22,554 nt of DNA from a virus. The stretch is from IMG/VR virus record IMGVR_UViG_3300042981_000193, positions 1 through 22,554 of that record. One strand, written 5' to 3'. A program made the position numbers and the translations under genes. The notes under the pieces were generated by a model. It worked only from the letters and a program-made list of their open reading frames with translations. It did not search any database and was not told the origin of the DNA. The stretch's first letter is position 1, and each line of letters begins with the position of its first letter. Positions 6,703 to 19,531 of this stretch are shown one piece after another.

Positions 6703-6708
6703 ACAACG

Positions 6709-6784
6709 TGTGCAGTAGAGCAGCGGCAGCTCGCCGGGGACGCCAACGCCCCGGAGGACGCGGGTTCGAGTCCCGTCTGCACAC
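6709..6784 (+). tRNA. tRNA-like gene with aberrant anticodon arm (specificity undetermined)
   Basis: The cloverleaf can be drawn by hand. A perfect 7-bp acceptor pairs TGTGCAG (6709-6715) with CTGCACA (6777-6783). The D arm is GAGC/GCTC around AGCGGCA. The variable region is AGGAC (6755-6759), and the T arm is GCGGG-TTCGAGT-CCCGT with a canonical loop. The anticodon arm is wrong: CCGGGG (6734-6739) pairs with CCCCGG (6749-6754) around a 9-nt loop, ACGCCAACG, that contains no T, so the universal U33 is missing. If the outer A and G are treated as mismatched, a 7-nt loop reading CCA (Trp) appears; GCC (Gly) is another reading. No CCA end is encoded. It may be a decayed phage tRNA, an unusual tRNA or a tRNA mimic. 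Confidence 0.6.
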
Positions 6785-6829
6785 ACCGCGCCGCGCGTCT
6801 AATCGGGAGCGCGCACTGGGCAGCGGAGA

Positions 6830-6864
6830 GCGCCCCGGGGTTCTGACTGGGTGCCCCGGGGCGC
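6830..6864. terminator. strong bidirectional-type hairpin between convergent operons
   Basis: GCGCCCCGGGG (6830-6840) pairs perfectly with CCCCGGGGCGC (6854-6864): an 11-bp all-GC stem with a 13-nt loop. On the plus strand it is followed by GTACTCTTCCCC, which is T-containing but not a clean U-tract. Its place between convergent transcription units suits a transcription barrier for the tRNA-side transcript and the minus operon. Confidence 0.6.
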
Positions 6865-6906: not shown

Positions 6907-7137
6907 TCAGGCCCCGGAGGTTTCCGGTTGTGGTGTCCTCTCGCGTACGAGCTTGTACCCGAGAGTTCGCCCGACGCCGGCGAGCTGCACTGCCTCCGTC
7001 ATCGTCAGGTCGTCGGATCGGATCGCCCGGGCGAGCAGGTGCGCGAGTGTGTTGTCTGCCTCTCGCAGCTGCTCGCGGGCCGAGCGCCTCTCAGCGCCGG
7101 CCCGCTCTAGTGCGGTTCGCAGTTCGTCGGTTGTCAC
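6907..7137 (-). CDS. small helix-turn-helix protein
   Basis: This is 76 residues and the last gene of the minus-strand operon. Residues 1-45 are a charged helix (RTALERAGAERRSAREQLRE) likely to dimerise as a coiled coil. They are followed by TMTEAVQLAGVGRTLGYKLV at about 45-64, which fits a helix-turn-helix: an Ala-rich first helix, a Gly-Val turn, and a recognition helix RTLGYKLV. It is probably a DNA-binding regulator of phage transcription, possibly of this operon. The start overlaps the stop of the preceding gene (ATGA). A short palindrome 12 bases past its stop could be its terminator. Confidence 0.75.
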   Translation of the reverse strand: MTTDELRTALERAGAERRSAREQLREADNTLAHLLARAIRSDDLTMTEAVQLAGVGRTLGYKLVRERTPQPETSGA

Positions 7138-7502
7138 TGGCCGTGTCTCTGCGCGGCCATCGGGTCAGCCTCGACGCTTGAGGCATCCTCTGTGACCGCT
7201 TCATCGGGCTCGCCAGCTTCCGCGATGCGGCAAACGCGGTCGATCAGCGGCGGCAGCTCGCCGCCCGTTTGGAGCCGCTCGGCCCGGACTCCTGCGTCAT
7301 AGGTCAGCCGCTGAATCTGTGTCAGTGCTCCCCACGGGTCGCCGCCGTTGTTCGGTACCGCCCCCGGGTCGATGCCCTTGACCTCTGCGAGTCTGAGCAG
7401 GTCCGCTATCGCTATTGGCAGCGCGTGACTGTCTCGCACTCGTCGGTACTCGGGATTCGACGCAAGCGCGTTTTCGGCCCGCTCGATCTTCTCGTCAAAC
7501 AT
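7134..7502 (-). CDS. hypothetical protein of the accessory operon
   Basis: This is 122 residues, with its start overlapping the upstream stop (TGATG) and its stop overlapping the HTH gene. The N-terminal half is helical (DEKIERAENALASNPEYRRVRD, then IADLLRLAEVKGIDPG). The middle carries GGDPWGALTQIQRLTYDAGVR, and the last 35 residues are acidic and probably disordered. No family is recognised. Tight coupling to its neighbours and membership of an ArdA-containing operon make a host-takeover or anti-defence role possible, but nothing in the sequence shows it directly. Confidence 0.7.
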   Translation of the reverse strand: MFDEKIERAENALASNPEYRRVRDSHALPIAIADLLRLAEVKGIDPGAVPNNGGDPWGALTQIQRLTYDAGVRAERLQTGGELPPLIDRVCRIAEAGEPDEAVTEDASSVEADPMAAQRHGQ

Positions 7503-7774
7503 CAGACCGCTCCCCCTGTCAGTGCATCGGCGTAGCGGGTTTCCGACACCGCGAGCAGCATCGGTTCCCCCGCGCAGTCGCGCAACGGCTCGTCATCTCC
7601 CAACTGCCAGTAGTCATCGGCGTCGGCGCTGCACTCCTCGCCAGTAACGGGCGAGTACGCGAAGCAGCGCCGACCCTCGACGTGGCCGCCATTCGGTAGA
7701 TCGCGGCCCGGGTGCAGTTCGCGGAACCGGCGCATGTTGGCCGGCGTTGCGAGCGTGGCTGTAACCGTGCTCAT
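7502..7774 (-). CDS. hypothetical small protein
   Basis: This is 90 residues. I choose the ATG at 7774 rather than an in-frame ATG at 7780 because AAGGAGG (7783-7789 on the minus strand) lies 8 nt before 7774 but only 2 nt before 7780. After a Thr/Ala-rich leader the protein has RFRELHPGRDLPNGGHV, CFAYSPVTGEECS, and an acidic DADDYWQLGDDEP segment. The three cysteines might bind a metal. I do not recognise the family. The sequence just before the ATG, TGACC, is shared with two other start sites in this operon. Confidence 0.7.
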   Translation of the reverse strand: MSTVTATLATPANMRRFRELHPGRDLPNGGHVEGRRCFAYSPVTGEECSADADDYWQLGDDEPLRDCAGEPMLLAVSETRYADALTGGAV

Positions 7775-7812
7775 GGTCATTTCCTCCTTGTCGGTTGTCT
7801 CAAGGCCTGACG

Positions 7813-7854
7813 GCCCGCCAAGCCCTGAACGTCTCCGCTCAGGGCTCAGCGGGC
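7813..7854 (-). other. long imperfect stem-loop between two accessory genes
   Basis: GCCCGCCAAGCCCTGA (7813-7828) and TCAGGGCTCAGCGGGC (7839-7854) pair over 16 positions with two mismatches around a 10-nt loop. It begins 9 bases past the stop of the 158-residue gene and ends 24 bases before the AAGGAGG of the next. No T-run follows on the minus strand. It could be a terminator, an attenuator or an mRNA-stabilising 3' structure. Confidence 0.55.
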
Positions 7855-7863
7855 GGCCTGGGC

Positions 7864-8340
7864 CTACTTGGCGAGAACCTTCTTGCCTTCGATCCGATAG
7901 CCGCGCGTCCGCTTGCCCTTTGGCAAGACGCCAGCGAGCTGCCCCGTGTACTCGGCCTGCACCGGGTTTTGCTCCGGCACGAGTCGCGCCTCGTGGAACT
8001 GCTGCCAGCCCTCGCGGTCGTAGACGATGATCGAAGCGAACTTCGTAGGCCCGTCCACACGCTCAATCGGCTTATGGCCCTCCTCGATGGCTGCGGCGAT
8101 CTGCGCCTCTACGTTCTTCGCGCGGTAGAGCCTTTGGAGGAGATAAATCGCGGCGTCTTCGTGGCTCCCGCTATTCCGGCTGTGCTGCTCCGGGTTAGCG
8201 ATGCCGGGGATACGACCCTTAAAGCATTCGTTGTACGGAAAGCCGCCTGCCGCCTCGATCTCCTCTCGAATGGACAAATACTCGGGGAAGAACTCTGCGA
8301 CCTGCTCTAGGTCTTCGTAGTCGCGGTTGAACTCAAACAT
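7864..8340 (-). CDS. hypothetical protein of the accessory operon
   Basis: This is 158 residues from ATG at 8340 with AAAGGA about 5-6 nt upstream. The N-terminus is acidic and aromatic (FEFNRDYEDLEQVAEFFPEY). A helical middle contains EDAAIYLLQRLYRAKNVEAQ, then comes a strand FASIIVYDREGW, and the C-terminus is basic (GKRTRGYRIEGKKVLAK). The acid-to-base gradient and the single well-defined strand suggest a compact alpha/beta domain. I know of no match. It is followed by a strong stem-loop, so it may be the last cistron of one segment of the operon. Confidence 0.7.
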   Translation of the reverse strand: MFEFNRDYEDLEQVAEFFPEYLSIREEIEAAGGFPYNECFKGRIPGIANPEQHSRNSGSHEDAAIYLLQRLYRAKNVEAQIAAAIEEGHKPIERVDGPTKFASIIVYDREGWQQFHEARLVPEQNPVQAEYTGQLAGVLPKGKRTRGYRIEGKKVLAK

Positions 8341-8424
8341 CGCGTTCCTTTCGTCGTGGACGCTTCACAATCCGAGCCCTACGGCTCGACCAGGCGCGAC
8401 CGCAGCCGCGCCAAGTCGAACCGT

Positions 8425-8643
8425 TCAGGCCGCGCGAGTGCGTCGGATCTCGACGCGCAGCGTCTCGCCGCCTTCCACCAGCGGCGCAATCGACTCCCAC
8501 CGCTGCTCAATGTGCGAATGCGCGGCGCGTAGCGCGGATAGCGGCGTCTGCTCCTCGCGCGTGGCGATCTTGTGCGTCACGTCTGCCCGCTTGCCGTCTA
8601 CGCGCTCGACGCGGTCTAGGTGGATGGTGGCCGTGATCCGCAT
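8425..8643 (-). CDS. hypothetical small protein coupled to ArdA
   Basis: This is 72 residues. ATG 8643 overlaps the ArdA stop as TGATG, so I prefer it to a GTG at 8652. A predicted first strand (RITATIHLDRVERVDG) and a last strand (ETLRVEIRRTR) flank a helix (PLSALRAAHSHIEQRWESIA), giving a simple beta-alpha-beta pattern. Translational coupling to ArdA suggests the two are made together. No family is recognised. The 84 bp after it hold a small hairpin (CGAGCC/GGCTCG, 8373-8388) and no further gene. Confidence 0.65.
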   Translation of the reverse strand: MRITATIHLDRVERVDGKRADVTHKIATREEQTPLSALRAAHSHIEQRWESIAPLVEGGETLRVEIRRTRAA

Positions 8644-9158
8644 CAGAGGCACCGGAAGACGTAGCCGTGAGCCTCGCTGTAGTCCATGCTCAATTCGCGG
8701 GTGGCTCGGTCCCAGTCGATGCAGTTCATCGGCCAGCCTGCATCGTGGTCAATCGCGCCGATGTCCTCGGCCAGCTCTTCGGCGTAGTCGCGGAGAGAGT
8801 CGTACTCGCCGCAAAACGCCTCTTCGAACTGCTCGATCGCGTCGGCGATGTCTTTGTCTTGAAGGTCGCCGACGATCTCGGACCAGTAGACGAGGAACGC
8901 CTCGCCGTGCTCCTCGATGGCCTGCGCGATCTCCGCAACGCGGGAGAGCTGCGTGTATTCGCCGATCAAGTCGCCGAAGCCTTCGCGGTCCATGAGCGCG
9001 ATCTCCTCGCCGCCGCCCTTCGCCAGAACGCGTGCCGCGACCGCCTCAAGCTGCTCCAGGTCGTCGGCGTCGGTCCACTCACCGACTAGGCGCCCTTCGT
9101 TGTAGGCGTGCAGAGAACCGATCCAGACGCGCGGCGTCTCAGACGTGCATGTACTCAT
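8643..9158 (-). CDS. ardA: ArdA-like antirestriction protein
   Basis: This is 171 residues. The start is ATG 9158, with AAGGGA 8 nt upstream; an in-frame TTG at 9164 is less likely. The sequence follows ArdA: PRVWIGSLHAYNEGRLVGEW at 9-28, DREGFGDLIGEY at 57-68, VAEIAQAIEEHGEAF at 74-88, and FEEAFCGEYDSLRDYAEELA at 111-130, ending in a YVFRC-type strand. The protein is strongly acidic, as expected for a dimeric mimic of bent B-form DNA. In the family it binds type I restriction-modification enzymes and blocks restriction of incoming DNA in the host cytoplasm. Its length is normal. It anchors the interpretation of this minus-strand operon as counter-defence. The cysteine-bearing C-terminus and small-gene neighbours are not diagnostic. 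Confidence 0.87.
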   Translation of the reverse strand: MSTCTSETPRVWIGSLHAYNEGRLVGEWTDADDLEQLEAVAARVLAKGGGEEIALMDREGFGDLIGEYTQLSRVAEIAQAIEEHGEAFLVYWSEIVGDLQDKDIADAIEQFEEAFCGEYDSLRDYAEELAEDIGAIDHDAGWPMNCIDWDRATRELSMDYSEAHGYVFRCL

Positions 9159-9243
9159 GGTCAAATCCCTTCGCTTAGATGTTTGGCGAGCCTGTCGGCT
9201 CTATCCGCGCCATCCCAGTGCGAGCGACGCGGCTAGAGCAGAC

Positions 9244-9598
9244 TCAGCCCGCGCCGTTCAACTTGGCCGCGAGAGAGCGCGCCTGACGCTCAGAGAGCGA
9301 CGGCAAGTCCTGCAAGCCGTGGCCGTGACGACAGACGCCCCAGCCGAACGTACCGGCGGGCTGGCGGTTGTTCGCGTCTAGGTCGATGGCGACGTATTCC
9401 GGTTGCGGTGTGGCGACCACGATCACGCCGCCGCGCTCGCTGGATACCTGCTCGCCGTCGAGCAACCGCTCGGCAACGCTGCTTACCGATCGCGGCCTCA
9501 ACGGCGGTCGGCTTCACGTCGCTCCGGTAGCCCCGGTGGCTGCCCTCGACGTGGCGGCGGACGTGGAAGGTCGGCTCGTCTGCTTCCCTCGTGTTCAT
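9244..9598 (-). CDS. hypothetical protein split by an apparent +1 frameshift
   Basis: An ATG at 9598 overlaps the upstream stop (ATGA) and opens a frame with phage-like codon use for about 38 codons (TFHVRRHVEGSHRGYRSDV, TAVEAAIG). That frame then turns arginine-rich with poor GC3 until 9290. The +1 frame, open from about 9515, has good codon use and a sensible protein: VAERLLDGEQ, GGVIVVATPQPEYVAIDLD, GWGVC, LPSLSERQARSLAAKL, stopping at 9244. The switch lies near 9483-9500. Joined, they give about 118 residues of one alpha/beta protein of unknown function. A sequencing indel, a decayed gene or real frameshifting are all possible. If the second half is separate, its only start is TTG 9501. 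Confidence 0.6.
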
Positions 9599-9927
9599 CT
9601 GCTCGGCCCCCAGCAGAGCTCGGCCAGCTTGACCAAGGCTTCCTGCGAGCTCGTGAACTCCTCGACCACCCAGAACCCGTCATCGGTCCGAGCGGCGAGC
9701 CAGCGATCTACACGCGACCAGCAGGCATCATTGGAGTCGTACCCGAATTCGTCTTCGGCCCCGTGGCCGATGATCGTCTCGATAGCTAGGGCAAGCGGTC
9801 GGTCACCGCAACGCTCAAACCGGCTCGCCTCGCTGTCGTCTGGATCTAGGTCGGGTTCGAGGGCAAGCGCAACGCTGAGTACCTGCGCGGTTGCCCTGTC
9901 GGTGGTTGCGCGACGTGCTGCGTTCAT
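9595..9927 (-). CDS. hypothetical acidic protein, first gene of the accessory operon
   Basis: This is 110 residues from ATG 9927, with GAAGGGA 8 nt upstream. It is acidic, with helices around ATAQVLSVALALE and PLALAIETIIGHGAEDEF, an aromatic stretch WSRVDRWLAAR, a strand FWVVEEFTS and a final helix EALVKLAELCW. As the first gene after the 444-bp control region it is likely the most promoter-proximal cistron of the minus operon. No family is recognised. Small acidic proteins next to ArdA are reasonable anti-defence candidates, but this is inference from neighbourhood alone. Confidence 0.7.
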   Translation of the reverse strand: MNAARRATTDRATAQVLSVALALEPDLDPDDSEASRFERCGDRPLALAIETIIGHGAEDEFGYDSNDACWSRVDRWLAARTDDGFWVVEEFTSSQEALVKLAELCWGPSR

Positions 9928-10029
9928 AGGTCACTTCCCTTCGGGAGGGGCTGGCAGTGTGCGCATTGGTAACAGATGGTGGCCTGCCAATGCAAGGCAT
10001 TCGACGGATGGACGATGCAGCTAATCCCG

Positions 10030-10062
10030 TGAATCGGGCCTGAATCGGACCCGAATTGGGCT
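10030..10062. repeat. three tandem 11-bp direct repeats
   Basis: TGAATCGGGCC, TGAATCGGACC and CGAATTGGGCT follow one another with no gap. The consensus is YGAATYGGRCY. An 11-bp period places each copy on the same face of the helix, as in iterons and cooperative operator arrays. Confidence 0.6.
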
Positions 10063-10197
10063 CGACTCACGCACGCACGCCGACCGCAAAACCGCGCGAC
10101 GGTCGATGGCGGCAGCGCTGGCAGCCGCGACCGTGCCGCCCAGGCAGACACTGCGATAGACACACAGGGCTAAGACTTGGCTCTGTAGAGCGGAGTT

Positions 10198-10221
10198 GTG
10201 ACTGTCACTTGAATCAGTGAC
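10198..10221. promoter_or_regulatory. overlapping GTGAC inverted repeats, operator-like
   Basis: GTGAC (10198-10202), GTCAC (10204-10208) and GTGAC (10217-10221) make three half-sites in 24 bp. The first two form a 5-1-5 palindrome. The second and third form the larger inverted repeat GTCACT-6-AGTGAC. This layout is typical of a dimeric regulator binding array; no cognate regulator is proven. Confidence 0.5.
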
Positions 10222-10354
10222 CATCCGAGATTCCGCATTGCAGAGCCATTCGGCTTCACATGCGAAGGGGGGCGGGGGAGTGGGCGCGATCCGCTGCCCC
10301 TGCACGTATATATGGCCTCCCTCGCCGACAATTTCAGCCGCAAAGGGCGCCAGT

Positions 10355-10371
10355 GTGTATACACTCGCCCT
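10355..10371 (+). promoter_or_regulatory. probable leaderless promoter overlapped by a perfect palindrome
   Basis: TACACT at 10360-10365 fits the actinobacterial -10 consensus TANNNT and ends 6 nt before the A of ATG 10372, the spacing expected when transcription starts at the start codon. No ribosome-binding site precedes the ATG. The perfect 10-bp palindrome GTGTATACAC (10355-10364) overlaps this element and would suit a repressor site. No good -35 is visible. Confidence 0.5.
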
Positions 10372-10593
10372 ATGCACCGGATCGATCGCCTCCCGATCCC
10401 CTTCCGCTGGGTCGCCTACGTGGTCGTCTGGGTCGTGCTGATCGTGGCCGTCCTGATCGGTGTCTCGCTCCTGCCGGCGGCCGTGGCGGGGATCGCCTAC
10501 CTCCTGCACCTGTCGATCGGCGTCTCGGCGGTGCTGGTCACGGGCGCCTCGTTTGTCTCGCTGTACCTCTTCGGCGGCCTGCTCGACTATTGA
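10372..10593 (+). CDS. small membrane protein with two predicted transmembrane helices
   Basis: This is 73 residues from ATG 10372; the in-frame ATG at 10312 would add a poor, Arg/Lys-bearing leader and ignore the promoter-like sequence at 10355-10371. After a short basic N-terminus (MHRIDRLPIPFR) there are two hydrophobic stretches, about residues 14-35 (WVAYVVVWVVLIVAVLIG) and 38-70 (containing GIAYLLHLSIGVSAVLVTG), with almost no charged residues between. It would sit in the inner membrane. Size and topology allow a holin, superinfection-exclusion protein or toxin. None is supported specifically. Its stop overlaps the start of the RHH gene, so the two are co-expressed. Confidence 0.75.
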   Translation: MHRIDRLPIPFRWVAYVVVWVVLIVAVLIGVSLLPAAVAGIAYLLHLSIGVSAVLVTGASFVSLYLFGGLLDY

Positions 10594-19496: not shown

Positions 19497-19531
19497 GGGG
19501 CCGCCCCCGAAGGGGCGGCCCCTTCCTGTTT
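19497..19531 (+). terminator. intrinsic terminator after the major capsid gene
   Basis: GGGGCCGCCCC (19497-19507) pairs perfectly with GGGGCGGCCCC (19512-19522), an 11-bp stem closed by a CGAA tetraloop and followed by TTCCTGTTT. This is the clearest Rho-independent terminator in the window. Partial termination here would favour capsid over downstream tail genes. Confidence 0.85.

Follow-up and report, generated by a model that had tools for sequence, protein, structure and literature searches.

The sequence considered here, a complete IMG/VR viral record of 22,554 bases (hereafter, the window), carries between positions 6907 and 9927 a block of small minus-strand genes that opposes the remainder of the genome, and that includes a gene encoding ArdA and three intergenic stretches, termed linkers below. 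An original prediction had described this block as a candidate anti-defence cassette of eight genes, several of them strictly coupled. All of the corresponding open reading frames (ORFs) were found, and the couplings could be read directly (ATGA at 9595/9598, TGATG at 8643 and again at 7502), together with a GTGA coupling at 7134/7137; the gene count held for seven intact genes, the eighth (9244-9598) being broken by the loss of 32 nucleotides. Codon scores strongly favoured the minus strand for ArdA and for the gene at 7864-8340, favoured it less strongly though still clearly for 8425-8643, and weakly favoured it for the other genes of the block; the plus-strand ORFs opposite the block all scored negatively. 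The genes form four runs, with three gaps of 84 to 89 nucleotides between them. Read leftward, the block comprises a promoter-proximal gene for an acidic protein of 110 residues (9595-9927, with a weak codon score), the broken gene, linker 1 (9159-9243), ArdA (8643-9158, 171 residues), a gene for a 72-residue protein that is TGATG-coupled to ArdA (8425-8643), linker 2 (8341-8424), a gene for a 158-residue protein (7864-8340), linker 3 (7781-7863), a gene for a 90-residue protein (7502-7774, or 7502-7780), a gene for an acidic protein of 122 residues (7134-7502), and a last gene, starting with GTG, for a protein of 76 residues (6907-7137).

The assignment of 8643-9158 as ArdA was confirmed by Pfam, by PHROGs and by the solved ArdA of Tn916. 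The match to PF07275 is full-length (profile positions 1-154 of 155, with an E-value of 4.1e-27 and 96.1 bits against a curated cut-off of 27), and the protein also matches phrog_2059 (E-value 8.6e-32) and the Tn916 ArdA structure, PDB 2w82 (E-value 7e-5). It contains 40 aspartate or glutamate residues versus 11 lysine or arginine residues, for a net charge of -29, and so displays the acidic character of a DNA mimic. Matches in phages were mostly to those of Mycobacterium, Rhodococcus and Gordonia, the best full-length matches being approximately 37% identical. The protein resembles Tn916 Orf18 and the ArdA-like proteins of mycobacteriophages in its full profile match, its strong acidity and its 37% identity (for example, to Lev2 gp81), and is itself an ordinary member of a family whose gene context varies between phages; in mycobacteriophage Lev2, the ArdA gene is likewise surrounded by small unknown genes, in an array that reads leftward. 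Among 20 related records, ArdA is unique to the window, and is absent from all 19 of the others that were searched. In this phage the protein would be expected to mimic DNA and to inhibit type I restriction early in infection.

The neighbours of ArdA had been suggested to block other defences, and for this no support was obtained: none was matched above chance in Pfam, PHROGs or PADLOC, the last of which holds defence genes rather than counter-defence genes. Across these three collections ArdA stands alone, such that the proposed cassette keeps its central gene but contains no second recognised anti-defence gene in the window, and no two adjacent genes of recognised anti-defence families. When the unknown proteins were searched for one by one among viral contigs, nothing was returned, and the promoter-proximal protein (9595-9927) displayed no Pfam or PHROG match above chance and no relative in phages, plasmids or viral contigs. 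The reading of 9244-9501 and 9290-9598 as two overlapping genes was rejected, as these are halves of a single gene; in comparisons with tblastn and MAFFT, the relative L057 (= L038) was found to carry an intact 122-residue ORF homologous to 9244-9598; the window copy lacks 32 nucleotides and is shifted in frame, which may reflect a real lesion or a slip of assembly. Matches of 8425-8643 to BrxB and FI were weak and were treated as chance.

Homologues of the 158-residue protein (7864-8340) were found only on Curtobacterium megaplasmids, near a gene for the RNA ligase RtcB, and a search of 395 Actinomycetes genomes returned only the Curtobacterium plasmid that was already known; an AlphaFold model of the protein was unusable, with a predicted local distance difference test (pLDDT) score of 41. 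On one such plasmid, pCPAA3 of Curtobacterium pusillum (L021:8836-10001), the homologue and the next gene have a common N-terminal leader of approximately 38 residues. The 90-residue protein (7502-7774) was found in the corresponding position of two relatives, at 48-64% identity, and its model, of fair quality (pLDDT 77), produced no fold match in the PDB. The label of helix-turn-helix protein given to 6907-7137 was not borne out by Pfam or PHROGs; the protein instead shows a weak match (hhalign E-value 0.0015, probability 17%) to a small protein that eight relatives encode near the end of the block, and to which it may be distantly related. The description of some neighbours as acidic was accurate (net charge -11 for 9595-9927 and -9 for 7134-7502), but such mild acidity is usual in these blocks, where the median net charge is -0.094 per residue.

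An anti-defence island, in which ArdA and its neighbours would each block a different host defence, can call upon a certain ArdA, upon two acidic neighbours, upon the similar position of ArdA in the leftward array of Lev2, and upon the clustering of anti-defence genes that is described for other elements (PMC7648647). It is opposed by the failure of the neighbours to match any recognised family and by an acidity that is the norm for such blocks, and also by the content of the same region in related phages, as follows.

Relatives were gathered by searches anchored first on the terminase and next on the portal protein, most of them having a portal protein that is 70-82% identical, and the corresponding region was compared; it was examined in detail in 13 phages (the window and 12 relatives). 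In all 13, the interval from the rightward replication genes to the packaging module is occupied by two to eight small genes on the minus strand. The right boundary of this slot is marked in 12 of the 13 by an element of approximately 100 nucleotides (the sequence of L063 stops before that position), which in the window lies at 10263-10373 on the plus strand, has a TATATAT core, is 64-76% identical in relatives by blastn, and probably contains the promoter from which the packaging genes are read rightward. At the left edge five of the 13 carry a tRNA, specifying glycine in the window, methionine in L010 and L061, and valine in L054 and L063; degenerate tRNA-like sequences occupy that edge in several other relatives. 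The tRNA-Gly(gcc) of the window, identified with ARAGORN at 6708-6787 on the plus strand, adjoins the block.

The gene content of the slot mostly differs from phage to phage, with scattered sharing. Among the 70 slot proteins of the 12 relatives no recognised anti-defence family was found; what could be recognised was chiefly zinc fingers, a family of matrixin-like peptidases and a weak match to NUDIX. One protein family, represented by L010:6529-6888 and by homologues in L055, L058 and L060, is encoded towards the distal end of the block; the matrixin peptidase profile was matched by three slot proteins, which are probably members of that family. Since the content is mostly different and no known anti-defence family appears in the relatives, the slot is an accessory one that calls for a better name than 'anti-defence cassette'. 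The block is best called the occupant of a hypervariable accessory slot common to this phage group, with anti-defence as one possible function of an occupant. Taken with the absence of ArdA from 19 relatives, these observations leave the anti-defence island an unlikely explanation of the block as a whole.

Within the window, each of the three gaps between gene runs contains a long hairpin that starts at the stop codon of the upstream gene and is followed by a ribosome-binding site. Linker 1 forms a hairpin of 50 nucleotides ahead of the ribosome-binding site of ArdA (-34.0 kcal/mol, z score -2.3); linker 2 forms one of 44 nucleotides (z score -3.4); and linker 3 forms a hairpin of 19 base pairs (-50.9 kcal/mol, z score -5.4), each z score being taken against shuffled sequences. 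By blastn, linker 2 is 97% identical over 63 nucleotides to a gap of L010, and a three-way alignment includes a third copy in L063; in both relatives it lies between unrelated genes. Hairpin counts alone were rejected as evidence, as the window contains 13 strong hairpins against 6 to 12 in shuffled sequences, a total that is not clearly above that range; because this total is not unusual, the argument concerning linkers rests upon their position and their sharing. At the convergent junction of the tRNA and the block lies a terminator-like, GC-rich inverted repeat (6830-6864, fold z score -5.1), and strong hairpins are found at the same junction in L010 and L016.

Hairpins placed directly after stop codons, and at the junction where tRNA and block converge, would be anticipated if the linkers were ordinary intrinsic terminators or attenuators, and the modules moron-like units with their own promoter and terminator. 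The window hairpins, however, are not followed by a T-run, and no sigma-70-type promoter was found between 6500 and 10700 in a scan that covers actinobacterial promoters poorly. Such terminators would furthermore leave unexplained three properties of the linkers of the relatives (a fixed loop, two invariant base pairs and a constant spacing, described below), and we regard this account as rather unlikely.

In nine of the relatives, 17 gaps within the block contain a tRNA-like element, consisting of an acceptor stem, a stretch of 10-14 nucleotides that often reads TTGGAGC, and a T-arm with the loop TTCRANY, after which the next ribosome-binding site follows. The acceptor stem and T-arm stack to exactly 12 base pairs, and a GG-containing stub replaces the D-arm. 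The spacing from acceptor stem to T-arm is 10-16 nucleotides in 28 of 28 elements, such that no anticodon arm is present and the elements are not genuine tRNAs. On the 3' strand, the distance from the T-loop to the discriminator position is 12 nucleotides in all 28 copies from the relatives and from Gordonia phages, and 11 in the Streptomyces phage Joe; in tRNA, a distance of 12 nucleotides corresponds to the 7 and 5 base pairs of the two stems. The first two pairs, both G-C, are invariant. Across 18 aligned copies, pairing holds in 99.5% of pair cells, versus 71% after shuffling; 8 of the 12 pairs have changed in both partners, and covariation scores 0.670, versus 0.155 when shuffled and at most 0.18 when slid. 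The copies and the structure were chosen by the analyst, which favours the structure, but the margin is large. By the 12-base-pair stack, the TTCRANY loop and this covariation, the linkers of the relatives and of the cultured phages described next are tRNA-like.

A blast search using one linker copy led to cultured phages, among them Cafasso and VanLee of Gordonia and Joe of Streptomyces (L066, L067 and L068). T-loop hairpins number 10 in the examined stretch of Cafasso, 18 in that of VanLee and 9 in that of Joe, versus 0.1-0.2 in shuffled sequences, these counts including a few copies on the other strand or in tRNA regions. By comparison with the published annotation, VanLee has the element in 15 of its 17 long gaps, Joe in 8 of 12 and Cafasso in 6 of 8, and no minus-strand copy falls inside an annotated minus-strand gene in any of the three. 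The elements in the leftward early arrays of these phages are unannotated. Mycobacterium phage Lev2 carries one copy (L069:730-771) in the leftward array that also holds ArdA; the copy starts 4 nucleotides past gene 87, and TTGACA comes immediately after it.

A covariance model built for the element returned 42 matches in 32 loci, some of which overlap, all in leftward early arrays. The same RNA model returned nothing from 198 Actinomycetes genomes, a weak negative in that strict filters were applied and scoring was limited to 32 candidates per genome. Rfam at gathering scores matched neither the window nor any of L066-L068. No published description of such elements was found, in a literature coverage that is incomplete and in which an earlier description is possible; in the phiJoe paper, a search by terms produced no mention of tRNA or of intergenic elements.

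The many copies per genome, with acceptor stem and T-arm kept and the anticodon arm missing, could also suggest RNAs that act as decoys for host enzymes that handle or cleave tRNA, including defence nucleases, the anticodon arm being the usual target of anticodon nucleases. Decoys would have no need to occupy every gap between genes or to overlap stop codons, and this explanation is considered highly improbable.

Sequence comparisons at the linkers further demonstrated abrupt joints between modules. In L058, L060 and L062 a linker of 44 nucleotides is 98-100% identical, while identity falls to 36-41%, the level of chance, in the 200 nucleotides upstream and in the 200 nucleotides past the next start region. 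An N-terminal leader resembling MNAESEMAGADGLGGEP is common to six otherwise diverging proteins (of L055, L057, L058, L060, L062 and L016), and in five of these six cases it directly follows the linker. Such near-identical joints between unrelated genes are the trace that exchange at linkers would be expected to leave. One form of exchange to consider is that the tRNA-like linkers are recombination sites of an integrase, with the slot behaving as an integron-like array: a folded element stands at the stop codon of each module in a single orientation, near-identical elements are flanked by unrelated genes, and a tRNA lies at the slot edge. No recombinase was seen, however, among the window genes that were scanned (a part of the total), and the shared stretch runs through the ribosome-binding site into the N-terminal leader, an extent more in keeping with homologous exchange or with function than with a short attachment site. 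An integron-like array appears very unlikely.

The reading that we prefer, at a probability of roughly 0.6, is that the block of the window is a slot occupant read leftward as modules, that its linkers punctuate the transcript and serve as joints of exchange, and that ArdA is one among the occupants. The lineage is one of high-GC, probably actinobacterial, tailed phages with a slot that is fixed in place but hypervariable in content, lying between rightward replication genes (often then a tRNA) and the promoter-like element of the rightward packaging genes. Leftward reading proceeds through modules, presumably expressed early, in which one to three genes are coupled in translation; gaps of more than approximately 50 nucleotides between modules usually hold a structured RNA linker, extending from the upstream stop codon to the next ribosome-binding site, whose type is tRNA-like in most relatives and, in the window, one of several long hairpins. 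The linkers would set off the modules within the leftward transcript, either by RNA processing or by the protection of RNA ends, and would also be the joints at which modules are exchanged. What the sequences establish is the slot with its variability, the linkers with their covariation, and the abrupt joints; RNA processing or protection, the mode of exchange, early timing and the role of ArdA here are inferences.

Several observations weigh against this reading. The covariance model finds no tRNA-like copy in the window, where its best match (E-value 0.057) lies outside the block and lacks a T-loop, and the idea of processing would extend to the window only by analogy of position. The hairpin of linker 1 is unexceptional, as 5 of 200 shuffled sequences fold equally well. 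In many copies of the tRNA-like element, the acceptor stem has its first base within the stop codon; a cut by ribonuclease P at that point would remove the stop codon, which speaks against simple 5' processing. The high identity of linkers could, in addition, be explained by functional conservation without recombination. A broader and more tentative proposal, to which we assign somewhat less than even odds, is that several actinobacterial phage groups use undescribed tRNA-like RNAs lacking an anticodon as the punctuation and exchange joints of shuffled early accessory genes, and that the window phage has swapped in other structured linkers with the same role.

Outside the block, genes on the plus strand of the window specify a DnaB-like helicase, an exonuclease, an annealing protein resembling Sak4 and a GIY-type protein, followed by the terminase, the portal, the major head protein and what may be an internal virion protein. 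A nucleotide search of a phage collection revealed no close relative of the window, and an actinobacterial host is suggested by the GC content and by the proteins to which ArdA and the terminase are related. The divergent region upstream of the block contains a perfect palindrome, GTCACTTGAATCAGTGAC, at 10204-10221, and a dyad of 44 nucleotides with 11-nucleotide repeats at 10028-10071, each a possible operator site. Repeated palindromes of the GTGTGCCCACAC type are located on the divergent side of the block in relatives (L010:7692-7705, L010:8245-8256 and L016:6364-6434), and are possible shared operators. A perfect GC hairpin at 19497-19522 lies directly behind the major head protein gene, and occupies the same place in L010, L013 and L016.

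Because its boundaries and linkers can be recognised, a conserved slot of this kind would permit the systematic extraction and screening of its occupants from both cultured and uncultured phages. Were the linkers processed, or were they to protect RNA ends, they would represent a new way of organising the operon of a bacterial virus; were they joints of exchange, they would explain how arrays are shuffled with reading frames and ribosome-binding sites intact. The availability of Cafasso, VanLee, Joe and Lev2 in culture makes both ideas directly testable.

The early accessory genes of actinobacteriophages constitute a large pool of unknown function, which is thought to hold genes for counter-defence and host takeover. 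Morons and the mosaic joints of tailed phages likewise involve accessory genes that run against the main direction of transcription, with joints at gene ends; the arrangement described here differs in its fixed slot, its repeated structured linkers and its several modules in a row, for which promoters of their own were not found. Integron arrays place a folded attC behind each module, in one direction and with shuffled content, whereas here no integrase was seen among the genes scanned and the element is tRNA-like rather than attC. The tRNA punctuation model for transcripts of organelles, and the tRNA-like 't-elements', involve tRNA-shaped stretches that lie between genes and could be cut by tRNA-processing enzymes; the linkers of the relatives are similarly tRNA-shaped and intergenic and might by analogy be cut by such enzymes, but they occur in phage early operons, lack an anticodon arm and overlap stop codons, and their processing is putative. 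The nearest described analogue is provided by the start-associated sequences (SAS/ESAS) of cluster K mycobacteriophages, which are likewise repeated and intergenic, contain inverted repeats just upstream of start codons within larger-than-usual gaps, and are of unknown function (PMC3203893). The 13-base-pair GGGATAGGAGCCC repeat of cluster K has no match in the window at up to 2 mismatches, and the elements of the relatives possess instead a tRNA-like T-loop and a stack of 12 base pairs.

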